This document shows, piece by piece, positions 4,071 through 56,120 of a stretch of 64,000 nt of DNA. How positions within the stretch are numbered: position 1 is the first letter of the stretch; every line of letters starts with the position of its first letter. Origin of the DNA: Paenibacillus azoreducens (GTDB lineage Bacteria; Bacillota; Bacilli; Paenibacillales; Paenibacillaceae); assembly GCF_021654775.1 (NCBI RefSeq), contig NZ_AP025343.1, positions 1,951,501 to 2,015,500 on the forward strand. The letters are read 5' to 3'. A program made the position numbers and the translations under genes. A model generated the notes under the pieces. That model searched no databases. It had not been told where the DNA came from and worked only from the letters and a program-made list of their open reading frames with translations.

Positions 4071-4292
4071 ATGGCAGACAAAATTCCTATGCAATATGAT
4101 GCTGATGCAGATCGGTGGTATGTGATTCTCAATGATAAGAAATGCTGGATGCATTGCGGTGAAGGCTTTGAGCTTTACATTTGTGGTGATCAAGTTCCAT
4201 GTCGGCTTGAGCTAGACCATGATTGGTATGTAGTCATTCAAGGCATCAGCTTCAATTTAAGAAAAGGGACTAAGTACATGGTTAATGTATAA
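4071..4292 (+). CDS. DUF5348-like protein
   Basis: AGAGGAG lies just before ATG 4071, which is chosen over a GTG at 4020. The 73 residues show the pattern RWYVIL, LHCGE-like WMHCGEGFEL, CRLEL and DWYVV that I associate with DUF5348, a small beta-rich family common in Firmicute mobile elements, of unknown function. It is followed after 15 bases by the resolvase-like gene, so the two are probably co-transcribed. Confidence 0.7.
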   Translation: MADKIPMQYDADADRWYVILNDKKCWMHCGEGFELYICGDQVPCRLELDHDWYVVIQGISFNLRKGTKYMVNV

Positions 4293-4307
4293 GAGAGGGG
4301 TAAAAAT

Positions 4308-4832: not shown

Positions 4833-4869
4833 TTTGGAAAGGAGAGAGTTGGAGGTGATAACTTTTAGT

Positions 4870-5520
4870 GTGAATCCGACAGAAGAGCGGATTGGAGATG
4901 CTGGAGTAAGGGTTGTACCTAGGAAGAAACCTGTAGCCCATTACAGTCGCTTTGAAAGTTTAGGAATAAGCGAAGGTTTTGTTAAAACGGTTGATGGATA
5001 TTTGGATCAGCCCATAAAAGTAGGCGCATTTGGATATGGTGTTGAGAGAAATACAAAAATGGCTATTAGCAGTAAGGAGGTTCCGATTCTGACTGTTGAT
5101 GAATTTAAAGCCGGTCGTAAAGGCGGGGTTTCAGAAGCGATTCTTAAGGTAAAGAACTTTTCTGATAATGACAACTGGCTTGAATCGTTAGACACTGATT
5201 ACGAAGTAATCAAAGCTGTATTTAATTTGGTTGAAATCGAGATCTATAACCATAAGAAGAAGTGGTTGCACTTAGTTATAGAAGTTGCTTTAAGAACAGG
5301 TAGATCAAAAGATATTGACTATCTTGGGAGGTTGATTGAAGAATTCAACGATTTCAGTAAACTGCCTCTAGTATCGCAAGATAAAGAGTGCTTCAAGTCG
5401 TCTACCAACCCAAGTATGATTCAAAAAGTCATCTTCTACTTAGAGGAACACAGTTTAAGGGATTTAGTGGGGTATATCATTACAAATAAAAAGGCAGCTG
5501 ATGCTGTTGGATTGTCTTGA
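4870..5520 (+). CDS. Hypothetical protein, possible IDEAL-type domain
   Basis: GTG 4870 is chosen because GGAGGTGATA sits 11 bases upstream; earlier TTG/GTG codons would overlap that site. The 216-residue product has a basic N-terminus and a central helical segment (about residues 125-165, with VIEVALRTGRSKDIDYL) that resembles the IDEAL domain of small Bacillus regulators, in which IDEAL is followed by a D-x-x-x-F/Y helix. This match is by eye only. It follows the resolvase-like gene on the same strand. Function unknown. Confidence 0.7.
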   Translation: MNPTEERIGDAGVRVVPRKKPVAHYSRFESLGISEGFVKTVDGYLDQPIKVGAFGYGVERNTKMAISSKEVPILTVDEFKAGRKGGVSEAILKVKNFSDNDNWLESLDTDYEVIKAVFNLVEIEIYNHKKKWLHLVIEVALRTGRSKDIDYLGRLIEEFNDFSKLPLVSQDKECFKSSTNPSMIQKVIFYLEEHSLRDLVGYIITNKKAADAVGLS

Positions 5521-21105: not shown

Positions 21106-21257
21106 ATGCCGATTGAAGCCACGGATAATTAAGGGGAATTAGTTGCTAGAAAAATTTCAAAATGTTGTAGAGTTTGATTGATTTTCAGGATAGTCATCAT
21201 GAGCAAATTTATAAGACCAAGAGAAAAAGAACAAGTAGAAGTAAGGAGATGAAGGAT

Positions 21258-24200
21258 GTGGCAAACAGTAAACAGGAAAGAAAAAGGTTCATCTCAGTTC
21301 TCTTGGTGATCGCTCTGCTTATTGGGCTATTCCCAATGAGCGCTCTTGCTGACGATCCACCAAGCGACACCGACTACGGAAATGAAGTGAGCGTAACGGA
21401 TGCTGTTTACGGCGAAACCAGTGTAACGAATGCAGTATGCGCTTCCGACCCGAGTCATTTCATTTACGAGTTAAATCCGGAATGGATGAATGAACCTTAT
21501 GCCTATATCCGAGAGTATATCGGACCAGGCGGAGATGTGGTCATCCCCGAGACAATCGAAGGGCGACCCGTTTCAAGGATTTTTGGAGCAGCATTTCTGG
21601 GTAATCAAAGTATTACGAGCGTAGTTATACCTGAAAGTGTTGAGCGAGTCGAGGTTAACGCGTTTGCGTACAGCTATGGAATTAAAAGTATTGTATTTAA
21701 AAATCCTGATACGATAATTGGTGACAAGAATGGTTTGTCTGATTGGGACATTGTGATCCCATACCAAGCTACAATTATCGGTCATAACAATTCGACAGCA
21801 GAAAGCTTTGCTCGTAAACGAAACATCAATTTTTTGAGCATTGATGAGCCTTGGACTACTGAAATAGACTATGGATCACAAGATGCAATGTCTCGTTTCC
21901 ATCGAGGTGAAGATGTTGTCGTGAGCGAACTGTTCCAAAGTAGTGAGTTGGCCAATTATTTCGCACATTGGATGGGCGAGCCTTGGGGACTATGGACAAC
22001 ACCAGTCTGGAACGGGACGATTAACGATACGCTCAATAAGCGTGACGTTGAGATGCGGATGCAAAGGTTCTATCAAAACAAAGGACACTTCTCATTCGGC
22101 TCCGATGATTTCAAGGGAATCACAAGCTTAGAGGGTCTGCAGCTATTCAAAGACAGTATCCTTAGCGACCCTAAGTTCTCGTACAATGCAGTATTTCAGT
22201 TTAGCGGCAATCAGCTTCGTGAAGTGAATGCCCTGAGCTTCCTGAACGGGGTAAATTATCTTGATCTGAGTAATAATCAGTTGGAGAACATTGACGGGCT
22301 AAGTGGTCTTGAAAGGTTAAGTCACTTGGATGTGTCCAATAACAATTTAACCAATCTTGATGGCTTGAGTAATTTGAGAAGGTTGATCGAGCCGCAGACA
22401 GCGGCGACAACGACCAGTGTTCTTGATTTCAGTCATAACCGGCTCTCCAACATCGAGGGGCTAAACAATGTAAGCATGCTTGATACACTAAATGCAAATA
22501 AGGTTGATTTCAGTTACAATTTCTTAACCAATAGTAACATTCCCACTTTATCGAAGCTGTTCAAACTTTTCGACCAAGTAGCAAAACCTCAGTTGCTGTT
22601 CGACTACAATTATATTTTTATTGACGACCAGGCAGCAGGTAAACAGTTCTACAACGATTGGTTAGAAATATCCGGTCTATCGAGGGGCGACAACCGAGCC
22701 AATACTCCGCAATACAATTATCGATTCGTTAAAGGTGCTGACACGTTAAGAGTCGAGCATCGTGTCAAAGGAACAGATGAATTGCTATCTTTTGAGGAAT
22801 ATTCGACAGCGGACAAGTCTTTGGACTTGAACGCTTCCATTACGTACAATGCCAAGAATTTTGAAGGTTATTCCCTCATTGGTGATTCAGGTAAGTATGT
22901 TTTAAACAAAGATCATATTTTCACTTCCAAAATCGGCACAGAGCGTCACTTAGTTAATTCAAGAAATGGGTTATCGATCTCCAATGTAGGACTGCCAGAT
23001 AATATGACTAGTTCAATTACGGATGAAGGGATATTGACCACTACCGATACAGCGGGCGAATACAACATTGTTGGTAAAGGAACTACAGAGGTTAATATTC
23101 ATAGCGAAGGGGTATCTCATGGCATTTATCCGCTCACTTTCGACACCTTTGGAAGCAAGGACAATGTCATCGTTTTCTATTACCAATCTTCTGCTTCATT
23201 AGCGAAGCATAAGTTAACAGTCGGTATGGAAGGGCAAGGTACAACCTTTCCTGCAACTGGCACTTACGAATACGATGACGGAGAATGGGTTTCCATCTCT
23301 GCTCGGAATACAGTACCAGGATATGAACTTGAAAAATGGGTGATTGATGGCGAGGATTACTTCGATGCCTTTGGTTATGGGGTAAGCTTGAAAATGGACA
23401 GCGACAAAACAGCAATAGCTCACTTCAAGCAAAACCAACCACAGCCTACACGGTATACGCTAACGGTTAATCAAGTTGGAATGGGAACAGTTACTCCGTT
23501 CGCAGCTGGCAGTGTTACGAATTTTCCCGAGTTTGAATCGGTCAGCCTGATGGCTAATCCCTCGCCTGGATATAAGTTCGAGAAATGGGTCGTGAATGGG
23601 CTAGAGTCAGACGATCAGGGTATTACCATGTATATGGATCGCAATGTTGTCGCGATAGCGCACTTCATCCCCATTGCATCACCACCAAAGGAATACAAAC
23701 TGATCGTTGAAGTCGTAGGTGAAGGTACAGTCAATGTTGTAAATGAAGATACAAAAGATGTGTTCCAAGATGTCCGAGGCGCAGTAGGACAGTTTAAGGA
23801 AGGAACTGAAATATCCGTATCAATGAATCCTGTTAAGGGGCATAAATTCACTAAATGGATGGTGGATGGACAGGAAATTGTTAAAGAGTCGCTCTCGTTT
23901 AAGATGGATGAGGACAAGATCGTCCAAGCCTATTTCGAGCCAGTCGTTCCATCACCAGAACCGAAAGGTAGTATAACGGTTGAATTTGTTGATTGGGAAA
24001 CGAACAGTAAGCTCAAAGAAGATGTAATTCTGTCGGATTTGCCGTTAGGTGATCATTCATATAGAGCTGATGCGTTTATCGGGGTATATAAGCTAATTGG
24101 AGATTCAGTCAGAAATGTTGTGCTAACAGCAGCCGAGCCATTCGGAAAGATGATCTTTCTTTATAAGAAGGAAGATGTCATCCCGACACCTGAACCAGAG

Positions 24201-25511
24201 CCGAAGCCAAATCCCGAGCCGACACCTAGCCCTGATCCAGAACCAAAACCAACGCCAGAACCGAAACCCGAACCGAAACCTGAGCCAACACCAGAGCCGA
24301 AGCCTGAACCAGAGCCGAAGCCAAATCCCGAGCCGACACCTAGCCCTGATCCAGAACCAAAACCAACGCCAAAACCAACGCCAGAACCGAAACCCGAACC
24401 GAAACCTGAGCCAACACCAGAGCCGAAGCCTGAACCAACGCCAAAGCCGACACCAGAGCTTAAGCCAGAGCCGAAACCTGAACCGACACCCAAGACGGAA
24501 TTGCCAACGGTAGATCCACAACCGGAGCCTGAAACAAAATCGAATGATAAGGAGCGGGGGCTTGAACCAGAGAGAGGGGCAAGCCAAGTAACAAATGTGC
24601 CGGCTCCAGCAGTTGAGAAAGAAATGGATACTTTGCTCGTTGAAGCTGTAGATCATGAGAACGAAGAGCTTCTCCAAACTGAGGAAATCGATACCTTGCA
24701 CTTAGGTTTGAATGAGGTCAAAGCCCCCATTATCGCTGGCTACTCTTTGATCGGATCGGATAAGCAAACGGTATTTATCAGCGAGAATGGTGAATCTTTA
24801 ACAGTTACCTTCAGGTATCTGAAAGAAGCTGAGCCGAACGAACTGTTTGGTGTTGTATACGGGGTTGTGAAGGACGCGAACGGTAATCCTATGCAGGGAG
24901 TAAAAGTCGAACTTCATTCCGATCCACGAATTACTTTTACCAACGAGAACGGCGAGTACCGCTTTGAGAATGTCGAGCTTGGGAAGCATACGGTTATATT
25001 GAAAAATCCATTTACCGACAAAGAAATTTCTCGGATCAACGTTGTTGCGTACAAGGACTACAGAGACTCAGATTCGACTACGGTTGAATCGGTGCAAGTA
25101 GCAGAAGAAGTAAAACGGTCAATCGAATTAAATGAATCAATGAGTACTCAACGGGTTGACTTCGTTATTGAAGCCATTGAACAACCAGAACCGGTATCGC
25201 CTGACAAAAAGTTCCCTATCATTCCGATAGTGGCGACTCCCCCGCTAATCATTATTCTTCTGGCGTACTCCAGAAGAAGGAATGTAGGTATTTACAACGG
25301 AGCTAATCTGCTGATCAAAAAGATTAGGGTGAAGGCGAAGCCTGAAACTGTCATTGATCTTACTGGTTATGCTGCAAGTGCATTCAAAGTGGTTTTCCGA
25401 AAGCCAAATAGTTTCAGGAATATTGATTTGTACATTAAATATGGCGACACCATTACGCAAGTCGAGTTGGCAGACGATCTAAACTTCATCGTGTTTTCTC
25501 CAGAGAATTAA
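21258..25511 (+). CDS. Large LRR/InlB-repeat surface adhesin
   Basis: AAGGAG at 21243-21248 suits GTG 21258 (1417 residues). After a signal peptide ([19 protein letters not shown]) come BspA-like LRRs (about 60-185), internalin-like LRRs (about 310-420, with [11 protein letters not shown]), three divergent InlB B-repeats (about 647-895, each ending AHF or AYF), a MucBP-like strand domain, a Pro-Glu-Pro repeat (about 975-1088), a second MucBP-like domain and a carboxypeptidase-regulatory-like Ig domain (about 1195-1265). A single membrane helix near 1325 and a cytoplasmic tail of about 75 residues replace the LPXTG signal. Likely a cell-surface adhesin. Confidence 0.88.
24191..24430 (+). repeat. 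Tandem duplication in Pro-Glu-Pro coding region
   Basis: The 114 bases from 24191 are repeated from 24305 almost exactly; the second copy has 12 extra bases (AAAACCAACGCC) near 24369. The unit encodes P-x-P repeats and keeps the frame, so copy number can change protein length without breaking it. Confidence 0.8.
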
Positions 25512-31938: not shown

Positions 31939-32523
31939 ATGCCGAAATACGGGTATGCCCGAGTAAGTACTGTGGGTCAGTCAAGGCACGGTAACAGTTT
32001 GGAGCATCAGGTAAACCAACTATTATCGGAAGGGGTCGATCAATCCTTTATTTTTGTAGATAACTTTACTGGCTCGAAAATGGACCGCCCTCAATTCACA
32101 AAGCTATTACAAATATTAAAGGCTGGTGATACATTGGTTGTCACCAAACTGGATCGGTTTGCTCGTTCCACAGTCGAGGGTGAAAAGATTGTTAAGAATT
32201 TAATCGAACGAGGCGTTCGAATTCACATTCTTAATATGGGAATCTTGGACAACACACCGACCAGTATTCTGATACGCACCATCTTTTTCGCTTTCGCTGA
32301 ATTTGAAAGAAACATGATCATTGAGCGAACTGCTGAAGGTAAAGCAATCGCCAAGCAGAAAACTGGATTCCGAGAAGGTCGACCACCTAAATTTACTAAA
32401 GTGCAGTTGGATTACGCGATTAGTTTACTTCAAACCCATAGCATGAATGAAGTCGTAAGCATAACACGGATCAGTGAAAGTACCCTAAAACGTGAGCTTC
32501 GAAGAAGAAGGAGTCCTATTTAA
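31939..32523 (+). CDS. Serine recombinase, resolvase/invertase family
   Basis: The 194-residue protein is a complete small serine recombinase: YARVS with catalytic Ser10, Arg8, the [13 protein letters not shown] segment, TKLDRFARS with conserved arginines, the long E helix ([13 protein letters not shown]) and a C-terminal helix-turn-helix after GRPP. It should bind paired sites as a dimer, cut both strands through a phosphoserine link and exchange them. It may resolve plasmid multimers or invert a segment. No obvious res repeats are adjacent. It is the only catalytically complete member in the window. Confidence 0.93.
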
Positions 32524-38150: not shown

Positions 38151-38450
38151 ATGAAATATTACGTCTATGCAAGAAGTGCAATGCAATTCCCTGATGCAAT
38201 CATAGCCCAAGTCAAAAAGTGCATGCAGTATGCCAATGAAAAAGGGTTTCTCATTGAAGAAGTATTCATCGATGACGGGTTTAGCGGCTTAGACGATGAT
38301 CGACCAGGCTACAAAAAGCTCTTGAAGACCGCCCTGAACGGAGATACAATCATTGTTGCTTCAGCGGGATCTTTGACCCGAGATTTTGCTAAGGTATCAG
38401 AGCTAGGTAATCGGTACAGTTTAGTGTTGTTGGATAAAATCGCGTTATAA
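38151..38450 (+). CDS. Stand-alone resolvase-like N-terminal domain
   Basis: GGAGGAAT precedes ATG 38151. Of 99 residues, YYVYARSAMQF aligns with YxRVS but the catalytic position reads Ala (ARSA against ARVS), followed by a clear VFIDDGFSGLDDDRPGYKKL segment typical of serine recombinases and AGSLTRDFA in place of LDRLxR. The E helix and DNA-binding domain are absent. Probably inactive in strand exchange; it might regulate a true recombinase. A terminator follows. Confidence 0.75.
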   Translation: MKYYVYARSAMQFPDAIIAQVKKCMQYANEKGFLIEEVFIDDGFSGLDDDRPGYKKLLKTALNGDTIIVASAGSLTRDFAKVSELGNRYSLVLLDKIAL

Positions 38451-38462
38451 GGGGTAAGCAGA

Positions 38463-38489
38463 GCCGCCAACTAATTTGGCGGCTTTTCT
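38463..38489 (+). terminator. Rho-independent terminator
   Basis: GCCGCCAA and TTGGCGGC stem, then TTTTC. Confidence 0.85.
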
Positions 38490-38762: not shown

Positions 38763-40307
38763 ATGGGCGATAAAGATAAGAAAAAAGGTCATAACGGTTT
38801 AATTGATTCGACTATTGGAGCAGCAACAACAGAAAATATTGAGCGTTATGGTCGTGCAGCATCGGAGTTTATCAAGGGGTATAAAGGATCTGTCGATGCC
38901 GATGGAGACATCATTAGAAAAGGACTCAAGCAGATGTCCGAATCGAAGGTGCATCCTGATTTTAAGTATCAGAATATAAAGCAGCAAGCTGGATTTTCAG
39001 CCGAGATCCATTATGTTGATAAAACGAACGCCGAAAATATTATCAATAAGAACGACACTCGAGTCTACCGATCTAATGATATCGGTAGAGGAAATGACCC
39101 GCAATTCGACGTCTTATCTATTGATGATTCGGGCAACCCTACGTGGGGTGCTCAAATGAAGTTTTATGGGAAGTTTGAGACTCCGGAAGAAATAAAGAAG
39201 AGTTCAGAAGAATTGGTAAGGAAAATGACGAAAGATGATTGGAATAGATATCGTGGGAATGATGTCTTAGTCCCACAAGAGCAGTACGAAATTGCAAAGA
39301 AGTACGCCGAGGATAAAGCAAGGGACTTGACTGAGCAAGCTGAAAAACTTAGAACACAAGGGCAGTTCGATAAAGCTGGTATCTTAGAAGAGAAGGCAGA
39401 GAGGTATCGTCAAGTTTCGAGTGACTTAAAGGATAGCGGAATTACTTCAAAAGAAGCCATATTCCTGCGCGAACATCCCAAATTAGCAACTGCAAAATAT
39501 GTGTTAGAAACTGCACATCAATCGGGTCTTGAAAATGCAAAGAGCGCAGCTGTAATTTCTGTAGCGATCTCAACTGCCCAAAACGTAACTAGTCTCATTA
39601 GAGGTAAGAAGCGTGTCGGAGAGGCGATTGTGGATGTAGCCAAGGATACTGCGGCAGGAGCTGCTACTGCATATGTCATAGGTGCTACTGATACTGCTAT
39701 CAGGGGTTTCATGGCAGCAAGTAAGGAAAGTGTCTTTGTTAACCTATCAAAGAGCAACATGCCTGCTATGATCGCCACTGCCACAGTTCAAGTGGGTAAA
39801 TCGCTAATTCGATATGCCAAAGGTGAAATAGATAGCCTTCAGCTTGTTGAAGAATTAGGTGAAAAAGGTACCGGCATGATGGCAGCCAGCTTTGGTGCGG
39901 CAATAGGAACAGCAGTATTCCCAGGCGTAGGAACAGTCATTGGGGGTATGGTTGGATATTTAGCAAGCTCATCAATCTATAATGCATGTATGCAGACCCT
40001 TCGAGAGGAACGATTTTCAGCAGAAAGAAGGGCAAAGATAAGTGCAATTGCATCAGCCGCTATAGAAGCGATGAATAAACAGGGTAATGAACTACAGGAA
40101 ATGGTTGAAAGATTTTACGCTGAAAGACAGAAGGTTTTTACTGAATCACTTTCTATGATTGAAACTGCAAGTCGGTTTGAAAATATTGAGTTATTCACGC
40201 AAGGGCTAAGTAATATTGCGATTGAAATGGGTGGAGCCTTAAAATTTAAGAATTTCACAGAGTTTGATACTTTTATGTCCGACAAGAATGCGGTCTTAGA
40301 ATTTTAA
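38763..40307 (+). CDS. Trio gene A: large protein with Gly-rich membrane segment
   Basis: GAAAGGG lies 7 bases before ATG 38763; the longer frame from 38607 has no ribosome site. In 514 residues, an N-terminal mixed domain (to about 150, with QFDVLSIDDSGNPTWGAQM) precedes a charged helical stretch, then a region of small-residue helices (about 260-340) and a glycine-zipper-like segment (about 380-410, GAAIGTAVFPGVGTVIGGM). I have the impression of a widespread uncharacterised family but cannot name it. It begins a three-gene cassette with 22 and 0 bases between genes, and may act at a membrane. Confidence 0.78.
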   Translation: MGDKDKKKGHNGLIDSTIGAATTENIERYGRAASEFIKGYKGSVDADGDIIRKGLKQMSESKVHPDFKYQNIKQQAGFSAEIHYVDKTNAENIINKNDTRVYRSNDIGRGNDPQFDVLSIDDSGNPTWGAQMKFYGKFETPEEIKKSSEELVRKMTKDDWNRYRGNDVLVPQEQYEIAKKYAEDKARDLTEQAEKLRTQGQFDKAGILEEKAERYRQVSSDLKDSGITSKEAIFLREHPKLATAKYVLETAHQSGLENAKSAAVISVAISTAQNVTSLIRGKKRVGEAIVDVAKDTAAGAATAYVIGATDTAIRGFMAASKESVFVNLSKSNMPAMIATATVQVGKSLIRYAKGEIDSLQLVEELGEKGTGMMAASFGAAIGTAVFPGVGTVIGGMVGYLASSSIYNACMQTLREERFSAERRAKISAIASAAIEAMNKQGNELQEMVERFYAERQKVFTESLSMIETASRFENIELFTQGLSNIAIEMGGALKFKNFTEFDTFMSDKNAVLEF

Positions 40308-40328
40308 TTTTATCAAGGAGGAGTATAC

Positions 40329-41363
40329 ATGCCATTACCATTAATACCTGCAATTGCAGCAGGGATAGCGGCTATTACTGCCGCGGCAGGAGTCAAGAAA
40401 GGCTTCGAAGCAAAGAGGGATATGGATAGAGCTAAATCCATTAACCAGACGTCCCAGGACATTGCAAAAGAGTCGGAAGACTTTATTGCAATGGCAAGGG
40501 AAAGTACAAATGAAGCCATTACAGAGCTTGGACAGGAGAAAATTCGAATTCTTACAACGTCGATCAATGACTTTGTATTGAATTTTGAAAAAATTAAGAA
40601 TATCGATCTTAAAAACAGCCAAGGGATCGATGAACTCAAAAACTTCAATCCGACAAGTGAGAGTTTTAAGCAATTAAAGGAGGCATCATTTGAAGCGAAG
40701 AAAATTGCGATTAACGGATTAGCGGCAATCGGGTCTGGGGCTTTACTTGCCTACGGTACATACAGTGTTGTTATGAGTGGACTTGGTGGGCTTATAGTTA
40801 CAGCTACGACTGGTACGGCATTAGGTACCCTTTCAGGTGTAGCCGCGACAAACGCGACACTGGCGTGGCTTGGTGGAGGGGCTTTAACCGCAGGCGGTTT
40901 AGGAGTAACAGGCGGTATGGTTGTTCTTGGGGGTATTGTGGCTGGACCAGCACTTGCCATTGGTGGAGCTATTTTTGCGAGCCAAGCTAAATCCGCTTTA
41001 AACGATGCATACGGCAACTATGATAAAGCCAAGGCTTTTAAGAAGCAGGCAAGGAACATCGGTATAGCCTTGAAAGCAATTTTTACTCGAGCGAATCAGC
41101 TAACTGAGCTATTAAAAAAGCTAGATGTCTTTTTTGCTTATCAAGTAGGAGTGTTACGCGATATTATTGATTCAAAAGGGGTTAACTGGCAGGATTATTC
41201 TAAGACAGAACAAGAAGAGATATACAAATGCGTCCAATTAGCTCAGGCTATTAAGGTTATTCTCGATTCGCCGCTTCTTAAGCAAGAGGGTCAATTGGAT
41301 GAAGCCACAGAATATGTGCTTGAGAACGGTAATAAGTACCTCAATACGCTGATGAATCAATAA
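40329..41363 (+). CDS. Trio gene B: glycine-zipper membrane protein
   Basis: AAGGAGGAG precedes ATG 40329 (344 residues). After a helical charged N-terminus of about 115 residues comes a very Gly/Ala-rich hydrophobic block (about 118-218, including GGLIVTATTG, LAWLGGGALTAGGLG and GGIVAGPALAIGGAIF), typical of membrane-inserting glycine zippers. A charged helical C-terminus follows. Such segments occur in pore-forming and membrane-disrupting proteins. Stop and next start are adjacent (TAAATG). Confidence 0.8.
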   Translation: MPLPLIPAIAAGIAAITAAAGVKKGFEAKRDMDRAKSINQTSQDIAKESEDFIAMARESTNEAITELGQEKIRILTTSINDFVLNFEKIKNIDLKNSQGIDELKNFNPTSESFKQLKEASFEAKKIAINGLAAIGSGALLAYGTYSVVMSGLGGLIVTATTGTALGTLSGVAATNATLAWLGGGALTAGGLGVTGGMVVLGGIVAGPALAIGGAIFASQAKSALNDAYGNYDKAKAFKKQARNIGIALKAIFTRANQLTELLKKLDVFFAYQVGVLRDIIDSKGVNWQDYSKTEQEEIYKCVQLAQAIKVILDSPLLKQEGQLDEATEYVLENGNKYLNTLMNQ

Positions 41364-42065
41364 ATGTTTAACTGTGATCAATGCGGATTGTGTTGTAAAA
41401 AGGTAGGGATGACCGAGCAATACAAACATTTGGATCGGGGCGATGGGGTATGTCTTCATTTTGACGTGGAGACGAATCTATGTAGTATTTACGAAACACG
41501 CCCCGTCATATGTAGAATAGATGAATCATACGAGTTGTTCTTTAAAGATCAAATGACTCTGGAACAATTCTACGCAATAAACTATAAGTCATGCGACATG
41601 CTTAAGAGATTGGAGAGTAATGGAATGAGTGATTTAAAGTCTGCACTGGTTGAAAAGTTTGAAGAGATCTTTGGCTATACACCCGGCGATGAATATGCAC
41701 CAAGAGTTAAAAATGCCAGGGAAATTATTTGCCAAGGTCAATACAACAAGGATGAAATAATCGATATTACTGATACGAGCATTGGAAGCAATGGAAAGTC
41801 TGGATTAGTCTTAACGATTGACTCAGTTTGCGTGAAGGATTCGGCAAACTTCACTTCAAAATTCATAGCAAAATATGAGGATATTGATTATACAAGTATT
41901 AACGAAGATCGATTTTTAGGTTTAGATATTACTGCCCTAGAACTCCATATGAAGTATGGTACAAAATATCAAATCAGTATAGATAAAATTAGCAGGAGAA
42001 AATTGATGGATTTTATCGATTACGCAATCTCAATTTATCAAGAAGACGATGCGCTTGAATGGTAA
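41364..42065 (+). CDS. Trio gene C: YkgJ-type cysteine cluster plus PH-like domain
   Basis: In 233 residues, the N-terminus holds the metal-binding pattern C4-x2-C7-x2-C10-C11 with C30, C40 and C50 (IYETRPVIC), matching the YkgJ zinc/iron-chelating family (PF03692). The C-terminal half (about 125-230) is strand-rich with a final helix and could be a PH-like domain, seen with GKSGLVLTIDSVCV and DYTSI. Immediate coupling to gene B suggests the cluster protein matures, senses for or regulates the membrane proteins. A terminator follows. Confidence 0.85.
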   Translation: MFNCDQCGLCCKKVGMTEQYKHLDRGDGVCLHFDVETNLCSIYETRPVICRIDESYELFFKDQMTLEQFYAINYKSCDMLKRLESNGMSDLKSALVEKFEEIFGYTPGDEYAPRVKNAREIICQGQYNKDEIIDITDTSIGSNGKSGLVLTIDSVCVKDSANFTSKFIAKYEDIDYTSINEDRFLGLDITALELHMKYGTKYQISIDKISRRKLMDFIDYAISIYQEDDALEW

Positions 42066-42083
42066 GCTAGTAATTGATTCTTT

Positions 42084-42118
42084 AAAGCCAGGTGCAAATA
42101 TATGCATCTGGCTTTTGT
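42084..42118 (+). terminator. Rho-independent terminator
   Basis: AAAGCCAGGTGCA and TGCATCTGGCTTT pair with one G-U, followed by TTG; ends the trio. Confidence 0.85.
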
Positions 42119-42166
42119 ACTAAATGACGATAATCATTATAAGATTTTATCTTGGAGGAAACGACT

Positions 42167-47978: not shown

Positions 47979-50732
47979 TTGTCCTATCAGTCGGAAGCCC
48001 AGCTTGAGAAAAATCTGATCGAGCAACTTGTTCGTCAAGGCTACGAACGAGTGACAATAAATGACTACGATTCGCTTTTAGGAAACTTTAAACAGCAACT
48101 GAATAAGTTCAATGAGAAGAAATTAAATGGTCAGCCGTTAACAGATGCAGAGTTCAGCCGATTCCTAACTCAGATTGATGGAAAAAGCAATTTTGACTCA
48201 GCAAAGATTCTTAGGGATAAACAAGTGTTCCAGCGTGATGACGGAACAGAGGTCTATCTTGAGTTGATGAATACCCGTGATTGGTGTAAGAACATTTTTC
48301 AGGTCACCAATCAGACAACAGTCGAAGGGACGTATAAAAACCGTTATGATGTAACAATCTTCATTAACGGCTTACCCGTAGTACAGATCGAGTTAAAGCG
48401 CCGCGGCTTAGATTTTAAAGAGGCGTTCAATCAGATTCAACGGTATCGAAAACACTCCTTCAGGGGGTTATATCGTTATCTGCAGATGTTTGTTGTCAGC
48501 AATGGGGTTGATACGAAATATTTTGCAAACTCCGATGGTGACATCTTGTATTCACATACCTTTTTCTGGTCGGATGCAGAAAATAATCGGATCACCAATC
48601 TGAGCGATTTCACTTCCAACTTCCTAGAAAAGTGCCATATGGCGAAGATGATCGCCCGATACATGGTATTGAATGAAACCGAGAAGTTGTTAATGGTCAT
48701 GCGACCGTATCAGGTCTATGCAGTTGAGGCACTTATTAAGCGTGCCTTGGAAACTAAGAACAACGGTTATATCTGGCACACAACTGGTAGCGGAAAGACA
48801 TTAACCTCATTTAAGTCGAGTCAAATCCTTGCGAACGAACCGCATATAAAGAAGGTCTTCTTCCTTGTTGACCGTAAGGATTTGGATAGTCAGACATTAG
48901 CTGAATTCAACAAGTTTGAACCGGATTCGGTGGACATGACGGATGATACGGATAAACTTGTGGCACAAATTTCGGACTTAACGAAGCCGTTGATCGTTAC
49001 TACAATTCAAAAGATGGCGAACGCTATAAAAAATCCTCGATATGAGGAGATCATGAAGCCGTATCAACAGGAGCGTGTTGTCTTCATTATTGATGAGTGT
49101 CATCGTAGCCAGTTTGGTAAGATGAAAAGACTCGTTGACAATCATTTTAAAGAGGCACAGTACTTTGGTTTCACGGGAACACCTTTGTTCGAGGAAAACA
49201 AAAGCCAAGACGGTCGGGTAACCGCCGATATTTTTGAGAAATGTCTACATACGTATCTGATTAAAGATGCGATCCATGATGGCAATGTCTTGGGGTTTTC
49301 GGTGGATTACATCCAAACGGTTGATGTTTCAATTAACGAAAAGGATCAGACCCGCGTAAAAGGAATTCTGACTGATGAAGTCTGGATGCATGATGATCGA
49401 ATCCGTTTGATCGCTGAGAACATCATAAACCATCATGATCGGAAGTCACGCAGTAAGGGGTATACAGGACTATTCACTGTGGATAGCATCCCGATGCTGG
49501 TTAAGTACTACGACACCTTCAAGTCCATGTCACATAACTTGAAGATTGCCGGCATTTTCACCTATGGACAGAATGAGGACAGTGAAGGCGATGGACAAGA
49601 CGAGCATTCTCGGGATAGCCTTGAACGTATCATCAAGGACTACAATGCTATGTTTGGAACCAACTTCTCAACAGATAAGTACCAAGGATATTTTGCCGAT
49701 GTTTCTCGTAAAGTCAAGACTGCTCAGATCGATATCTTACTGGTAGTCAACATCTTTTTGACAGGATTCGACAGCAAAACTTTGAATATCCTCTACATGG
49801 ATCGCTTCTTAAAATATCATAATTTGATTCAAGCCTTCTCTCGCACCAATCGGACGGAGAAAGCGACCAAACCTTACGGGAATATTGTATGCTTCCGCAA
49901 TCTCAAGGAAGATACGGACGAGGCAATCAAGTTGTTCTCAAAGACAGATAGCGTCGATGATGTCCTGATGAAGAGTTACGAAGAATACCTTCAAATGTTC
50001 AGGGCAGCTCTGGTAAAAGTCAAAGCTCTCGCCGCTACGCCAGCGGAAGTAGATGCTTTGGAGCGGGAGGAAGAAAAACAAGAGTTTGTCATTAGCTTCC
50101 GTGAGCTTACCAAATATCTGACTCGTCTCCAAACTTTTACCGAGTTTGAATTCGACTCGGCTCGATTGGGTATTTCTGAACAGGAGTACCAGGATTACAA
50201 GAGCAAGTATCTCCGTATTTATGACGAAGTTAAGCGCGGCGGGGGTAAAGAATCGATCTTGGCGAACGTTGACTTCCTAATCGAGCTGATGCATACCGAT
50301 CGGATTAATGTAAGCTATATCATGAATCTGATCCGGAACATCGATTTCGATAATGAAGAGCAGCGGGACAAGTCGGTAAAAGATATTGAAGATGAGATCA
50401 ATCGGGCTGATAACGAGCAGCTACGACTCAAAGCGAATTTGCTGAAGGACTTCTTGCGAAAAGTAGTACCAACGTTAACCAATGCAGATTCGGTAGACGA
50501 TAACTACAATGCCTTCGAACAAGAAGAACGTATGAAGGAAATTGAAGCATTCGCCAGTGAAGTGGGGTTATCGGCTGAAGTAATACAAGGCTTTGTACAG
50601 GAATATGAGTACGGCGGACTGGTCAACCAGCAAGAGATCAGTGATGCTGTTAAGTTGCCATTCCTCAAAAAACGAGCAATGATTCAACGGATTATCGAGT
50701 TCATCTCAGAGCACACCAAACGTTTTTCATAG
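47979..50732 (+). CDS. hsdR: Type I restriction enzyme R subunit (HsdR)
   Basis: AAGGAGG precedes a TTG start at 47979. In 917 residues, D124 (NRYDVTIF) and E138-x-K140 (QIELK) form the nuclease centre, GSGKT near residue 270 is Walker A, DECH near 372 is the DEAD-type box and FTGTP is motif III of the translocase. HsdR cuts DNA at a distance after ATP-driven translocation when the target is unmethylated. It leads the order R - small S-like - M - S. A terminator and two palindromes follow before the next gene. Confidence 0.95.
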   Translation: MSYQSEAQLEKNLIEQLVRQGYERVTINDYDSLLGNFKQQLNKFNEKKLNGQPLTDAEFSRFLTQIDGKSNFDSAKILRDKQVFQRDDGTEVYLELMNTRDWCKNIFQVTNQTTVEGTYKNRYDVTIFINGLPVVQIELKRRGLDFKEAFNQIQRYRKHSFRGLYRYLQMFVVSNGVDTKYFANSDGDILYSHTFFWSDAENNRITNLSDFTSNFLEKCHMAKMIARYMVLNETEKLLMVMRPYQVYAVEALIKRALETKNNGYIWHTTGSGKTLTSFKSSQILANEPHIKKVFFLVDRKDLDSQTLAEFNKFEPDSVDMTDDTDKLVAQISDLTKPLIVTTIQKMANAIKNPRYEEIMKPYQQERVVFIIDECHRSQFGKMKRLVDNHFKEAQYFGFTGTPLFEENKSQDGRVTADIFEKCLHTYLIKDAIHDGNVLGFSVDYIQTVDVSINEKDQTRVKGILTDEVWMHDDRIRLIAENIINHHDRKSRSKGYTGLFTVDSIPMLVKYYDTFKSMSHNLKIAGIFTYGQNEDSEGDGQDEHSRDSLERIIKDYNAMFGTNFSTDKYQGYFADVSRKVKTAQIDILLVVNIFLTGFDSKTLNILYMDRFLKYHNLIQAFSRTNRTEKATKPYGNIVCFRNLKEDTDEAIKLFSKTDSVDDVLMKSYEEYLQMFRAALVKVKALAATPAEVDALEREEEKQEFVISFRELTKYLTRLQTFTEFEFDSARLGISEQEYQDYKSKYLRIYDEVKRGGGKESILANVDFLIELMHTDRINVSYIMNLIRNIDFDNEEQRDKSVKDIEDEINRADNEQLRLKANLLKDFLRKVVPTLTNADSVDDNYNAFEQEERMKEIEAFASEVGLSAEVIQGFVQEYEYGGLVNQQEISDAVKLPFLKKRAMIQRIIEFISEHTKRFS

Positions 50733-50752
50733 TGCTATTTATAAAAATAGCA
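50733..50752. repeat. 20-bp palindromic element, copy 1
   Basis: TGCTATTT, 4 bp, AAATAGCA; perfect 8-bp arms. It starts at the base after the hsdR stop. A second copy with a different 4-bp centre is at 50807-50826. Confidence 0.6.
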
Positions 50753-50781
50753 GAAAAGGACTTGCCTTTTCTGCTGTTTTT
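50749..50781 (+). terminator. Rho-independent terminator after hsdR
   Basis: AGCAGAAAAGG and CCTTTTCTGCT form an 11-bp stem, followed by GTTTTTT. Confidence 0.85.
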
Positions 50782-50806
50782 TATTATATTGAAGTTGTTG
50801 GTTTAA

Positions 50807-50826
50807 TGCTATTTTAATAAATAGCA
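50807..50826. repeat. 20-bp palindromic element, copy 2
   Basis: TGCTATTT, 4 bp, AAATAGCA, 74 bp from copy 1 and immediately before the GGGGAGGG site of the S-like gene. Confidence 0.6.
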
Positions 50827-50842
50827 AAAGGGGAGGGTTGGT

Positions 50843-51445
50843 TTGAATTTAGAACAATGTGCATCGGTGGTGCAAGGGGCATTTTTATCCCGTATACAGA
50901 CGTCACCTTCATTGGAGGCAGTAAAGCTTCCGGTCTACACGATGAAAGAAATGAACGAGTGGTTAAGTCCTGATCCCACATCGGTAGAGAATCAGCAAGA
51001 TGCTTCTGATGTTCATGTAGATCAAGGGCGTTTGGTATCTTTACCACTCGCCAAAGAGGGTTTAGTCCTAATAAGCTTGACTGGACAACGAGCAGTAGCA
51101 TTGCAGCAGGAGCATGCTGGAAAGTTGATCCCTTCTAACTTTGCCATCATTGAGCCTACAGGTGAATTGCATCCTGACTATCTGGAGTGGTATATCAATG
51201 AACATCCAGATTGTCGCAAACAATTGAAGATCGCAACGCAAGGTTCCAGTATAGCAGCTTTGTCGATTCAAATGCTTAGGACTTTGGAAATTTTTTTGCC
51301 ACCTATGGACGATCAAGTGAAGATTGGTAGCGTCCATAGATTATTACATCGAAAAAATCGACTACTTCAGGAGAGAATCGTATGGGAACAGCAATATATC
51401 AAACAGTTATTGATGGGGTATCTAAAGGGGGAGGTAAACAGATGA
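50843..51445 (+). CDS. Half-size HsdS-like specificity protein
   Basis: GGGGAGGG precedes TTG 50843. The 200-residue product resembles one target-recognition domain plus one conserved helix of HsdS: a strand-rich N-terminal region, ATQGSSIAALSIQML, then LPPMDDQVKIGSV and a long coiled helix. Normal S subunits have two such halves; a single half can work as a dimer. The final bases overlap hsdM by four (ATGA), so the two are coupled. Confidence 0.72.
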   Translation: MNLEQCASVVQGAFLSRIQTSPSLEAVKLPVYTMKEMNEWLSPDPTSVENQQDASDVHVDQGRLVSLPLAKEGLVLISLTGQRAVALQQEHAGKLIPSNFAIIEPTGELHPDYLEWYINEHPDCRKQLKIATQGSSIAALSIQMLRTLEIFLPPMDDQVKIGSVHRLLHRKNRLLQERIVWEQQYIKQLLMGYLKGEVNR

Positions 51446-53007
51446 CAACGACCGAGTTACAACGTCATCAACAAGCCGAGTTACATAAGAAGCTTTGGGA
51501 CATGGCAAATGACCTACGCGGTCAACTCGAAGCTTACGAGTTTAAAAACTATATACTTGGTTTAATCTTTTACCGTTATTTGTCTGACAAAACAGAGGAT
51601 CGGGTTAATAGTCTTCTTAAGGAAGACAATATTTCTTACAGAGATGCTTGGAAGGATCAAGCTTATCGGGATGCTTTAAAAGATCAGCTCATTCAGGAAA
51701 TTGGCTACGTCATTGAACCAGACTACCTTTTTTCGAGCATGATTGAGGAGATTGGTAAAGGAGAGCAAGGCAAATTCGATATTGAAATGCTACATAAAGC
51801 GGTCACCGCAGTAACAGAATCAACCCTTGGAGCGACGAGTCAGGATGACTTCCAAAATTTATTTGATGACATGGATTTGAATTCCTCCAAACTAGGGCGT
51901 GATGTAAAGTCTCGCTCCAAGCTAATCGCAAAGGTCATGGTCAATATTAATGATATCCCCTTCTTACATGATGATGTGGACATTGACGTTCTGGGCGACG
52001 CTTATGAGTATTTGATCGGACAGTTTGCTGCCAATGCGGGGAAAAAAGCTGGTGAGTTCTATACTCCACCACAAGTTTCCAAAATCATTGCTAAGATAGT
52101 TACGCTGGGTAAGAATGACTTAAGAAATGTCTATGACCCGACTTGCGGTTCAGGATCGTTGCTCTTGAGGGTCGCCAAGGAAGCGAGAGTCAGAAAGTTT
52201 TACGGGCAAGAGAAAACCTCAACTACTTATAACTTGGCTCGTATGAACATGCTCCTGCATGATGTGTCTTATCATAACTTCGATATTCAAAATGCCGATA
52301 GTTTGGATGAGCCGCGGCATCTAGATATGCGTTTTGAAGCCGTAGTAGCAAATCCTCCATACTCAGCAAAATGGAGTTCTGATGAAAAGTTCCTGCAAGA
52401 TGAGCGGTTTAGTGCCTACGGAAAACTAGCTCCCTCATCCAAAGCCGATTTCGCTTTTGTTCAACATATGATTCATCATCTTGATGATAACGGAACAATG
52501 GCAGTTGTCCTTCCTCATGGGGTATTGTTCCGCGGTGCGGCAGAAGGAGTAATTCGTAAATACCTGATCGAAGAAAAAAACTACTTGGATGCGGTGATCG
52601 GCTTACCAGCAAACATTTTCTTTGGGACAACGATTCCAACGTGCATTCTTGTGTTCAAAAAGTGTCGAGAAGCGAATGATAACATTCTGTTTATTGATGC
52701 TTCCAATGATTTTGAGAAAGGTAAGAACCAAAATCGTCTTCGTGATGAAAATGTGGAGAAGATCGTTGAAACATATACGACTCGGCAAACTATCGAGAAG
52801 TATTCATATGCCGCTAGTATTGATGAAGTCAAAGAGAATGACTATAACTTGAATATTCCACGTTATGTTGATACTTTTGAGGAGGAAGAACTAGTCGATT
52901 TGAACAATGTACAAGCAAGAATTAAAGAGATTGATTCAGAGATACTACAAATTGATAAAGAATTAGAAACGTTTTTCAGAGAACTTGGAATACGGGAAGG
53001 TAACTAA
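51442..53007 (+). CDS. hsdM: Type I DNA methyltransferase M subunit (HsdM)
   Basis: GGGGGAGG sets ATG 51442 over the longer frame at 51382 (521 residues). DPTCGSGSLLL near residue 232 is the AdoMet-binding motif and NPPY near 303 the catalytic motif of N6-adenine methylases. The N-terminal helical domain (LWDMANDLRGQLEAYEFKNY) is typical of HsdM. It methylates the target defined by the S subunit and forms the core of the restriction complex. The stop is 1 base from the hsdS start. Confidence 0.96.
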   Translation: MTTTELQRHQQAELHKKLWDMANDLRGQLEAYEFKNYILGLIFYRYLSDKTEDRVNSLLKEDNISYRDAWKDQAYRDALKDQLIQEIGYVIEPDYLFSSMIEEIGKGEQGKFDIEMLHKAVTAVTESTLGATSQDDFQNLFDDMDLNSSKLGRDVKSRSKLIAKVMVNINDIPFLHDDVDIDVLGDAYEYLIGQFAANAGKKAGEFYTPPQVSKIIAKIVTLGKNDLRNVYDPTCGSGSLLLRVAKEARVRKFYGQEKTSTTYNLARMNMLLHDVSYHNFDIQNADSLDEPRHLDMRFEAVVANPPYSAKWSSDEKFLQDERFSAYGKLAPSSKADFAFVQHMIHHLDDNGTMAVVLPHGVLFRGAAEGVIRKYLIEEKNYLDAVIGLPANIFFGTTIPTCILVFKKCREANDNILFIDASNDFEKGKNQNRLRDENVEKIVETYTTRQTIEKYSYAASIDEVKENDYNLNIPRYVDTFEEEELVDLNNVQARIKEIDSEILQIDKELETFFRELGIREGN

Positions 53008-53008
53008 T

Positions 53009-54262
53009 ATGAAGATATTGCCGAAGCTAAGATTTTCAGAATTTACGAATGAGTGGAAGCATAAAAAGCTTGGTGACTTAACAATAAAGGTGGGAAGTGG
53101 AAAGACTCCTAGAGGTGGTAGTTCCGTATATACTGATGAGGGCGTAGTATTTATCAGAAGCCAGAATGTTTTGAATGGACAACTGTTCTTGGATGACGTT
53201 GCGTATATTTCGGAGGAAGAAAATAACAATATGTTATCTACTCAAGTATATGAAAACGACATACTATTGAATATCACTGGAGCATCTATTGGTAGGAGTT
53301 GTATAGTTCCACTTGGTTTTCCAAGAGCCAATGTAAATCAACATGTCTGTATTATTCGAGTAAATAAAGGCTATGATCCTTCCTTCATAATGAATCAAAT
53401 TATCTCATATAAGGTTCAAAAGCAAATTGATAGCTTTCAAGCAGGGGGAAATAGAGAGGGTTTAAATTTTGAGCAGATAAGAAATATAAGGGTTAGCATA
53501 ACATCTGAAACAGAACAGCGTAAAATTGCATCTTTCCTCTCACTATTAAATCAAAAAGTGGAGAGACAGAAAGAGAAGATCGAAGAACTAGAGTTGTTCA
53601 AGAAAGGTTTGCTCCAAAAGATTTTCTCACAGGAGATTCGATTCAAAGACGAGAATGGGCAGGAATTTCCTGAGTGGGATTCATCGGTCTTAGAGGAATT
53701 AGGTTCGTTTACTAGAAACTACAGCTTTTCACGCAGTGTCGAGGGAGAAGGGGAATATCAACATGTTCATTACGGTGATATTCATTCTAAATTATCGGGA
53801 GTGATTACCTCACAGACGGAGCTTCCGTCATTAAGTATCGATACAGAAACAACATACACACTTCTTAAAGACGGAGACGTTGTATTTGCTGATGCATCCG
53901 AAGACACTTCTGATCTAGGTAAAAGCGTTGTTCTTCTTGAAGGTAACAATAGAAAAATAATTGGTGGGTTACATACCCATTGTTTTAGACCATATAGCCG
54001 GTTAGACTCGTTGTTTTTGCATTACTTTACACAGACTACTGAGTACAGGAAGTTTATTAATGTAAATGCAAATGGGGTATCAGTTTTTGGACTGTCAAAG
54101 CCAGCGTTATCAAGTCTAGAAGTTCCACTTCCTGATATTAAAGAGCAAAGAAAGATATCTGGTTTTCTCTACAAGTTATCTCAGAAGATTGAATTGCTTA
54201 AAAAGAAAAATACCGAGCTAGAAGTTATGAAAAAGGGTTTTATGAATCAAATGTTCGTCTAA
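53009..54262 (+). CDS. hsdS: Type I specificity subunit (HsdS)
   Basis: GGGAAGG precedes ATG 53009 (417 residues). Two target-recognition domains are visible, each opening with an RFxEF or FPEW segment (LRFSEFTNEW; EFPEWDSSVLE) and each ending in a long helix after E/K-Q-R-K-I (ETEQRKIASFLSLL; IKEQRKISGFLYKL). This is the regular two-domain plan and would define a bipartite DNA target. The target itself cannot be read from sequence. Confidence 0.95.
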   Translation: MKILPKLRFSEFTNEWKHKKLGDLTIKVGSGKTPRGGSSVYTDEGVVFIRSQNVLNGQLFLDDVAYISEEENNNMLSTQVYENDILLNITGASIGRSCIVPLGFPRANVNQHVCIIRVNKGYDPSFIMNQIISYKVQKQIDSFQAGGNREGLNFEQIRNIRVSITSETEQRKIASFLSLLNQKVERQKEKIEELELFKKGLLQKIFSQEIRFKDENGQEFPEWDSSVLEELGSFTRNYSFSRSVEGEGEYQHVHYGDIHSKLSGVITSQTELPSLSIDTETTYTLLKDGDVVFADASEDTSDLGKSVVLLEGNNRKIIGGLHTHCFRPYSRLDSLFLHYFTQTTEYRKFINVNANGVSVFGLSKPALSSLEVPLPDIKEQRKISGFLYKLSQKIELLKKKNTELEVMKKGFMNQMFV

Positions 54263-54699: not shown

Positions 54700-54724
54700 A
54701 AAGCCGCCAATAACTGGCGGCTTT
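54700..54724 (-). terminator. Hairpin at end of minus XRE gene
   Basis: AAAGCCGCCA and TGGCGGCTTT form a 10-bp stem that overlaps the stop of the minus gene ending at 54723. Confidence 0.7.
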
Positions 54725-55415
54725 AAGCTTTAGCTTGTATCAAGTCATTCCCGTTTATGTCGAGCAACTCGTATGCTTTCCCTATCATGTCTTTGTCGCG
54801 GTCGAACAAGTGAATCGACTTATCATGAATACCACTCGTCGCAGTGACAAAATTCATTTGTTGTACCATAAATTCAGAATTGCAGAGTACAACTACTTTA
54901 TTGCTATATGTAGTAAGCTCTTGCTGAAATAATACTGCTTTTTCTGCCACCTCTATTGAGTATACGGCTGGTTTTCCGTCAGTTGCCTTCATATCTCGAT
55001 GATCAACAAAGACGCTAAGTTCTTCTTTTTGAAATGCGTTGCATATCCCCAACAGGGTTTTAGACATATGATCTACATGTTGTCCGTTCAGCAAGCCACT
55101 AACTTGAAAGGACAGAATCCGTTTATCACTGTCCAAATGATACTTGAACCGTTCAGAGATTGGAACGGTAAAGTCATGCGGTTGGTAAGCGAGGGTATCT
55201 GAAAGCCTTTCGACAGCAAACATATACGAAATTGATACATTCAATGCTTTAGCAAGTCGTTCGATATTATCCAAGCTGATATTTCGAAGTCCTCGTTCTA
55301 CACCACTGAGATAGCTCCGATCCATTCCTGCTCGGTGAGCCAAGACTTCTTGAGACATCCCACTTCTTGCACGAAGTTCACGTATTCTATTCCCAAACTC
55401 AATTCTTATATTCAC
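54723..55415 (-). CDS. XRE-family regulator with STAS-like domain, copy 1
   Basis: GAGGTG fits a GTG at 55415 (230 residues); another GTG at 55424 overlaps that site. Residues 8-65 form a lambda-repressor-type helix-turn-helix ([28 protein letters not shown]). The C-terminal half has the strand-helix pattern of a STAS/SpoIIAA-like domain ([37 protein letters not shown]), perhaps binding a partner or ligand. The adjacent gene is a close paralogue. Confidence 0.85.
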   Translation of the reverse strand: MNIRIEFGNRIRELRARSGMSQEVLAHRAGMDRSYLSGVERGLRNISLDNIERLAKALNVSISYMFAVERLSDTLAYQPHDFTVPISERFKYHLDSDKRILSFQVSGLLNGQHVDHMSKTLLGICNAFQKEELSVFVDHRDMKATDGKPAVYSIEVAEKAVLFQQELTTYSNKVVVLCNSEFMVQQMNFVTATSGIHDKSIHLFDRDKDMIGKAYELLDINGNDLIQAKA

Positions 55416-55430
55416 AAAATCCACCTCAAA

Positions 55431-56120
55431 CTAATGCACTTTAATTAAGTCATTTCCGTTAATGTCAAGCAACTCGTATGCTTGTCCGACCATATCTTTA
55501 TCACGACCGAAAAGAGGAACCGTAGGAATGCCACTTTCTTGGGTAATTCTTTTTAATTGGTGCACTTGAAATTCCGAATTACAGAGAACTACGGCTTTAC
55601 TGCTATATAAAAGCAAGTTCCGTTGAAAAGCTATAGCTCTATCGGCAACTATTGGCGAGTAAACTACCGGTTCGCCATCAGAAGCTTTCATATCACGGTG
55701 ATCAACAAATAATCTCAGTTCACCTTTCCCGAATGAACTACAAATTCCCATGAGGGTCTTGGACATAAAATCAACATTATCTCCTGTTAATAACCCATGA
55801 ACCTGAAAGGCGAGTACCCTTCTGTCAGCATCAAGTTGATACTTAAACCTCTCTGTAAACGGTATCGAAAAATCATTTGGTTGATATGCAGGGGTTGACG
55901 AGAAGCGTTCGCTCGAGAACATGTACTCAACCGATACAGAAAGCGCCGCGGCGATCTTTTCGATATTAACCAGGCTGACATTGCGTTCTCCCCGTTCGAC
56001 ACCACTTAAATATGTACGATCAAGCCCCGCGCGATATGCAAGCGATTCCTGAGACATGCCACTTCTCGCCCTCAATTCACGGACTCTTTGCCCAAATTCA
56101 TTCCGTATGTCCACAAACAA
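55431..56120 (-). CDS. XRE-family regulator with STAS-like domain, copy 2
   Basis: AAGGAGG on the minus strand precedes a TTG at 56120, with a GTG two codons later as alternative (229 residues). The helix-turn-helix ([20 protein letters not shown]) and C-terminal domain ([32 protein letters not shown]) follow copy 1 almost position by position. Only a few bases separate the genes, so they are co-transcribed and could form hetero-oligomers. A promoter lies at 56145-56173. Confidence 0.85.

Follow-up and report, generated by a model that had tools for sequence, protein, structure and literature searches.

A three-gene candidate anti-phage cluster of the PDC-M09 kind in Paenibacillus azoreducens

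What do three closely packed genes in Paenibacillus azoreducens, two encoding proteins with glycine-rich hydrophobic segments and the third a YkgJ-type cysteine-cluster protein, do for the cell that carries them? They occupy positions 38763 to 42065 of a 64,000-nucleotide stretch of DNA (the window; positions 1,951,501 to 2,015,500 of contig NZ_AP025343.1), in a genome that consists of a single contig of 7.3 Mb. An initial annotation considered an abortive defence or toxin system plausible, and defence is also the best guess of the present analysis. We lean towards the view that the trio is a candidate anti-phage system, chromosomal and of patchy distribution, of the kind listed as PDC-M09 in PADLOC-DB v2.0.0, with a membrane nuclease-like effector, a membrane partner and a regulatory YkgJ-PH protein. 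The open reading frames (ORFs) and the hairpin concerned are as follows.

38763 to 40307, plus strand: gene 1, a 514-residue PDC-M09B-like protein with a nuclease-like N-terminal part, a middle part and a glycine-zipper hydrophobic segment at about residues 371-402 (ORF, PADLOC match, invariant residues, hydropathy)
40329 to 41363, plus strand: gene 2, a 344-residue PDC-M09A-like protein with a hydrophobic N-terminus and a Gly/Ala-rich hydrophobic stretch at residues 126-220 (ORF, PADLOC match, alignment, hydropathy)
41364 to 42065, plus strand: gene 3, a 233-residue fusion of an eight-cysteine YkgJ/CxxCxxCC domain (about residues 1-80) and a BnzA/YokE-like PH domain (about residues 116-222) (Pfam, PADLOC, alignments)
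42084 to 42115, plus strand: terminator-like hairpin with a 13-bp stem, a 6-nt loop and a short T-run (folding)

A conserved cluster around the PDC-M09 pair

Both defining proteins of PDC-M09 are encoded next to each other here, in the order M09B-M09A. Protein 1 matches PDC-M09B at 1.4e-10 over model positions 69-438 of 480 and protein 2 matches PDC-M09A at 2.3e-22 over positions 19-275 of 282, the assignment being made by E-value and model coverage rather than by PADLOC's score thresholds. The earlier statement that the set could not be matched to a named system is therefore superseded for genes 1 and 2 and holds for the cysteine-cluster part, which is unmatched as a PDC-M09 component. PDC-M09 is matched here by its A and B models only; no PADLOC model matched the TerB-like and YkgJ proteins tested (loci L035, L018 and L030). 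What is described here is a new, larger definition of an already flagged candidate pair, and its interest lies in the cysteine-cluster part and in nuclease-like domains that can be exchanged. PMC12988326 presents the PDCs as candidates from guilt-by-embedding, with validation pending for most core-defensome PDCs, and cites a preprint (Payne et al. 2024) as their source. Our literature searches found no paper that names PDC-M09 or describes its mechanism, and searches of titles and abstract openings on YkgJ with TerB, defence or iron-sulfur, on TerB with PH/YokE and on glycine zippers with defence returned no paper on the system; the main text of DefensePredictor does not mention TerB, YkgJ, PDC, glycine zipper or WYL.

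All three ORFs were confirmed. The longest frame of gene 1 runs from 38607, and the ATG at 38763 was chosen, with a ribosome-binding site (AAAGGGA) just 5' of it. Genes 2 and 3 abut with 0 bases between them, as first annotated, and the gap between genes 1 and 2 measures 21 bases rather than 22. The counterpart of protein 1 in Paenibacillus humicus NBRC 102415 (L003, the same locus) is 100% identical to it.

Conservation of the unit was assessed in 80 loci, the best 80 of 107 confirmed relatives from several phyla, found with a protein-1 alignment in a collection holding one genome per species. Clusters were scored on our own ORF calls, and the remaining 0.70 Mb of the same loci served as background. 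Genes 1 and 2 are neighbours in 79 of the 80 loci, L068 being the exception; the proposal of one real, conserved unit is borne out, and the rare co-occurrence of homologues named beforehand as evidence against it was not seen. A YkgJ protein is encoded in 46 clusters versus one in the background. Many relatives extend the trio as first annotated by a TerB-like gene that the window lacks, present in 50 clusters versus one in the background. PH parts resembling that of protein 3 occur in 12 clusters, and either YkgJ or PH in 53. The flank to the right of gene 1 is shorter than 2.7 kb in 14 loci; the other 66 hold 40 of the YkgJ and 41 of the TerB clusters. Position is also regular, YkgJ lying downstream of gene 2 in 44 of its 46 clusters and upstream of gene 1 in two, and TerB between genes 1 and 2 in 44 of its 50, upstream in five and downstream in one. 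Fifteen control stretches of 16 kb gave no match at 1e-4 to the WYL, YkgJ, TerB, gene-1 or gene-2 profile.

Pfam gave YkgJ above its cut-off in all three separate YkgJ proteins tested (L016, L035, L072), and TerB above the cut-off in L030 and below it in L018 and L047 (0.0011 and 0.0016); the in-between ORFs of L016 and L035 had no Pfam TerB match and were called TerB-like from the iterated profile alone. The sole YkgJ gene outside a cluster lies 1.35 kb 5' of gene 1 in L039, where, at about 4093-5400 and some 1 kb upstream of gene 1, it is followed by a radical-SAM-looking ORF (CNFDCPFCYY). The sole outlying TerB gene is found near a second gene-2-like ORF in L026; there an opposite-strand cluster beside the ordinary copy (12697-15124, minus strand) encodes a 300-residue TerB-like protein, called by profile match and unmatched by Pfam TerB, and a gene-2-like protein.

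In the wider database, at E 0.001, protein 1 has at least 269 relatives and protein 2 at least 2464 (about 8000 best candidates scored for each), and protein 3 has 46 (148 candidates). All three genes stand on consecutive locus tags in Sporomusa ovata (SOV_52340/52330/52320) and Cytobacillus eiseniae (J2Z40_003538/37/36).

Clustering of the neighbours of the loci also yielded a family of WYL-type regulators. Such an ORF lies directly upstream, within 800 bases of gene 1, in 25 of the 80 loci, 71 of which have at least 1.3 kb of sequence on that side, and eight further ORFs of the family lie elsewhere in the loci; the L035 member matches the PADLOC WYL model at 1.2e-17. More than half of the fetched relatives thus carry the cysteine-cluster protein, more than half the TerB-like protein and nearly a third the upstream regulator, which can guide the choice of genes for joint cloning. 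A small XRE-type-looking helix-turn-helix ORF was seen near 10 of the 80 loci (L021, L026, L042, L046, L050, L058, L063, L067, L077 and L082).

The three proteins and their exchangeable parts

Protein 1 had been annotated as a large glycine-zipper protein; the zipper segment is present, but the protein is not merely a membrane protein, for an invariant nuclease-type pattern occupies its first 160 residues. Hydrophobic segments, defined by a 19-residue mean hydropathy of at least 1.3, were found at residues 261-279 and 371-402. Residues N71, Q74, G77, E81, D116, Q131 and K133, among others, are invariant in a 31-row alignment of database matches. Adding the 80 loci to these rows gives a set of 111 sequences, in which some organisms occur twice; Q74, G77, E81, D116, Q131 and K133 are each kept in 111 of 111, although in the 80 loci the invariance of G77 and E81 is forced, because the fetch pattern QQAGFSAE contains both, which counts against leaning on those two. 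D116, Q131 and K133 lay outside that pattern. The order E81, D116, Q131, K133 (E / D / QxK) is that which a PD-(D/E)XK core requires; E, D, (D,E,Q)xK is the core motif of Mrr-like PD-(D/E)XK enzymes, and the Mrr relatives compared were chosen by that motif and so show it. These residues suggest that the N-terminus is a PD-(D/E)XK-type nuclease-like domain of putative activity.

In more distant relatives the likeness to protein 1 is limited to its C-terminal part. By eye, L121 and the first copy in L018 carry an HNH-looking N-terminus before the common part, and L087 and, less surely, L122 an E..AD..QAK-looking one, the HNH and the QAK readings both being without Pfam or PDB support; L089 holds a recognisable copy of the protein-1 N-terminal part (5.8e-7). 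The kinship of L122 is doubtful, because its protein is Ala/Gly-rich and its locus has no gene-2 match, and its best PDB match (1.1e-5, a fimbrial fusion, 40 residues) was disregarded, as no stretch passes on its own. That different nuclease-looking domains can stand in front of one and the same membrane segment favours the nuclease reading. L018 (5522-7863) and L121 (G301, 690-2802) contain a divergent second version of the pair with a short gene-2-like partner that has no Gly-rich stretch; in L018 it lies directly upstream of the ordinary copy.

Protein 2 has hydrophobic segments at residues 1-26, 126-173 and 181-220, so that the annotation of two products with membrane-type segments agrees with the hydropathy of proteins 1 and 2. 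Neither protein matched a Pfam family above cut-off, and a PDB sequence search with protein 2 gave nothing convincing (best E 0.18). The PADLOC models LeoB and LeoBC, which we take to represent the dynamin-like Leo system, offer a further comparison. Residues 375-485 of protein 1 match LeoB positions 445-553 of 568 at 2.3e-6, a likeness confined to the Gly-rich part and what follows, and protein 2 matches LeoBC at only 0.17; unlike the Leo system, the trio contains no dynamin or GTPase Pfam family.

Gly-rich hydrophobic segments in both proteins would also suit an abortive pore former, in line with the initial annotation. Proteins 1 and 2 would then open the inner membrane after infection, the N-terminus of protein 1 would do no more than bind a partner or nucleic acid, and protein 3 would act as sensor or antitoxin. 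Matches among the 31 gene-1 relatives to SLATT_fungal, a two-transmembrane effector domain (weak, four relatives, best 0.01), and to Gly-zipper_Omp (three relatives, best 6.8e-6) point the same way, as does the match of the L035 gene-2 relative to LeoBC at 6.9e-5. However, the charged D116/Q131/K133 are invariant and a mere binding domain need not keep them, and the partners of the HNH-looking L121 and L018 proteins indicate that the Gly-rich stretch is not needed in every relative. We consider pore formation possible but unlikely as the main activity, and prefer the nuclease-like effector.

In protein 3 the seven cysteines listed by the initial annotation (C4, C7, C10, C11, C30, C40 and C50) were all found, together with an eighth, C77. 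The protein matches Pfam PF03692, described by Pfam as a putative zinc- or iron-chelating domain, with 31.9 bits against a cut-off of 23 (E 2.1e-7), and putative metal binding follows from this pattern. The seven pattern cysteines are conserved by construction among the loci, because the YkgJ profile was seeded with a cysteine regular expression on the same loci; C77 is not part of that expression, and 46 of the 47 YkgJ proteins aligned from the fetched loci, a set that includes L003, retain it. Of 30 aligned relatives of protein 3, 16 match PF03692 at E up to 1 and the rest are mostly PH-only. Protein 3 is unlike the YkgJ/YcgN proteins in that it falls far below the NCBIfam YcgN equivalog cut-offs (best 18.5 bits versus 170) and in that its domain sits in a conserved cluster with genes 1 and 2. 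It has no hydrophobic segment at the threshold given above, and a PDB sequence search found no match.

The PH-like domain first proposed for its C-terminal part is moderately probable: this part matches PADLOC BnzA positions 32-140 of 544 at 5.2e-6 and one relative bears the source name 'YokE-like PH domain-containing', whereas Pfam bPH_3 was weak in two of the 30 aligned relatives (best 0.011) and did not match protein 3 itself. PH-bearing third genes of other loci match BnzA more strongly (L024 at 9.9e-21, L042 at 8.4e-10). Across protein 3 and these relatives the likeness to Bunzi lies within BnzA positions 13-152, only a small part of the 544-position model, and BnzB was not among the PADLOC matches of the nine proteins scanned; the trio and Bunzi have a PH part in common, yet they are different systems. 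Outside the window, positions 3405936-3406119 of the same genome (L002, L105) hold a lone remnant of the protein-3 PH part, with 77% DNA identity and one internal stop.

Among the relatives the cysteine part may be joined to gene 1, encoded on its own or replaced by zinc ribbons. One gene-1 relative (P0076) has YkgJ fused in front and another (P0082) a zinc ribbon; in L034, L042 and L050, by sight, gene 1 opens with a CxxC pair that resembles a zinc ribbon, and zinc ribbons plus a PH part take the place of YkgJ in the third gene. The L042 third gene, the only one of these three tested, matches Pfam Zn_Ribbon_1 at 8.4e-12. When 78 of the 80 loci are placed on a gene-1 tree, built by a quick method with undetermined loci counted as a group, third-gene types are clustered (21 changes versus a shuffled mean of 34; 0 of 200 shuffles as low); the zinc-ribbon form makes up one supported clade, and the YkgJ form lies on both sides of the midpoint.

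Such variation bears on whether the YkgJ proteins are sensors at all. They could be maturation factors that, for example, deliver metal to protein 1 or 2 or modify it, and the varying position of YkgJ (downstream, upstream, fused) as well as the loci with zinc ribbons on gene 1 and the third gene instead would suit that role. Against it, the P0076 and P0082 fusions have the look of a lasting component of the complex, not of an enzyme that works on it. We hold a maturation role to be about as doubtful as pore formation, and a regulatory part remains our preferred reading of protein 3. The cluster offers a context in which the role of YkgJ proteins can be tested.

Distribution, proposed mechanism and points of doubt

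The system is accessory, chromosomal and patchily distributed. A second sample comprised 249 genomes from the phylum, among them that of the window. The gene-1 alignment matches 15 of these, many over the glycine-rich part only, and gene 2 matches nine, seven of which have a gene-1 match within about 1 kb (coordinates read by eye); in another, G234, a weak gene-2 match (8.6e-4) has no gene-1 match beside it. Protein 3 is matched over its length in two of the 249 (the window's genome and G086), both times beside gene 2. Among 100 genomes of the genus the gene-1 alignment matches 12, and protein 3 matches three of 200 relatives, in each case at full length only in the window's genome, where genes 1 and 2 have no second match. 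The E. coli genomes gave no match to an Enterobacter DNA query. A mainly phage-borne mobile element was considered and rejected: protein 1 was unmatched in phages, the protein-2 alignment was unmatched in IMG/VR, and plasmids numbered two. On an Azospirillum ramasamyi plasmid a WYL gene and gene 1 are followed by a second 'hypothetical' gene in the place of gene 2.

As an anti-phage system of the PDC-M09 kind, the trio might work as follows. Protein 1 would be a nuclease-like effector tethered to the inner membrane through its glycine zipper, and protein 2 would insert a Gly-rich hairpin into the same membrane as its partner. Protein 3 would be the regulatory part, its PH domain docking on lipid or on a partner and its metal cluster reporting the trigger, which may be a redox or metal change or a membrane disturbance during phage DNA entry. 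Triggering would free the complex to turn its nuclease-like domain on nucleic acid at the membrane, and might make the membrane permeable as well. In many relatives the TerB-like protein would add to or replace the PH part in a docking or sensing role, and a WYL-type regulator would control expression. The survey thereby yields testable roles for an effector, a membrane partner and a metal-dependent regulator.

A number of results weigh against this picture. No YkgJ gene is found in 34 of the 80 clusters and neither YkgJ nor PH in 27, seven of these 27 having the short right flank; the window itself has no TerB-profile match, no WYL-type ORF was found in L003, whose stretch is the same as the window's, and G125, a phylum genome with a strong gene-2 match, gave no detected gene-1 match. 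Comparing the protein-1 N-terminus with 17 Mrr_cat proteins by hhalign gave a probability of 0.3 and no support, and no Pfam nuclease family matched this part above cut-off; a PDB sequence search with protein 1 gave nothing convincing (best E 0.033, a yeast spindle protein), and the HNH look of L121 and L018 had no Pfam and no PDB sequence match. The system was not found in phage records or viral contigs, and the literature searched contained no phage assay of it. In favour of the picture, PADLOC WYL models match 12 of 143 nearest neighbours (36 loci) and are not among the 25 families listed for 143 control proteins. In all, 164 PADLOC families were matched by neighbours against 68 by controls, 25 being listed per set and the control coming from genomes of the phylum whereas the loci span several phyla; no enrichment is claimed beyond WYL, because PADLOC models overlap, several are promiscuous and one protein matches many. 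The other neighbour families among the matches listed are HTH_VI (five), JukA, capH and Cas3c (three each), type I restriction, mad8 and mad1 (two each), and type IV restriction and BnzA (one each).

A non-defence role, in which the module would answer membrane or metal stress by repairing or remodelling the membrane, is quite improbable: TerB, named for tellurite resistance (Pfam description), and PF03692 point to metals and defence-gene enrichment beyond WYL is not established, but presence is patchy (one of 100 genus genomes), genes 1 and 2 are entered in PADLOC as a candidate for defence, and PMC10952713 lists TerB as a domain of the defence systems Shango and Bunzi.

Within the anti-phage reading, a bolder version, to which we give tentative and minor credence, is that PDC-M09 is an immune complex of several parts docked at the membrane, whose N-terminal nuclease domains can be interchanged and whose gate is a metal cluster of eight cysteines. 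To our knowledge, no YkgJ-type metal cluster has been described earlier as triggering an anti-phage nuclease or holding it in check, and this would, if true, be the first. The system also offers a specific setting for asking why proteins of the TerB type keep appearing in phage defence.

Surroundings of the trio in the window

Downstream, the 70 bases at 42066-42135 that hold the 3' hairpin fold at -21.8 kcal/mol (z -4.04). The terminator first assigned to the trio is accordingly retained as a stable hairpin, with the qualification that its T-run is short and that it is absent from the list of the terminator scan. The same scan gave a second terminator-like hairpin 5' of the trio, at 38460-38486. 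Directly 5' of the trio, the short ORF at 38151-38450 has the resolvase N-terminal domain only (PF00239, 2.1e-12) and is perhaps a recombinase remnant; a longer resolvase-like ORF was recognised by sight at 31939-32523.

The initial placement next to nuclease and restriction genes was right in part. A 324-residue neighbour at 42983-43957 matches PDDEXK_4 weakly (Pfam, E 0.066, below cut-off) and occurs in two of the 100 genus genomes, the window's own and one with a broken remnant; the type I restriction genes (47979-54262), recognised by eye from translation, are about 6 kb from the trio. Further to the left, an ORF for 1445 residues with a long Pro/Glu/Lys repeat tract lies at 21174-25511 (plus strand), and the ORF opposite it (24123-24701, minus strand) is probably an artefact of that repeat. 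Adjoining the type I restriction genes, at 54723-56120 on the minus strand, translation gives a tandem pair of helix-turn-helix-looking regulators, 233 and 229 residues long and clearly related to each other.

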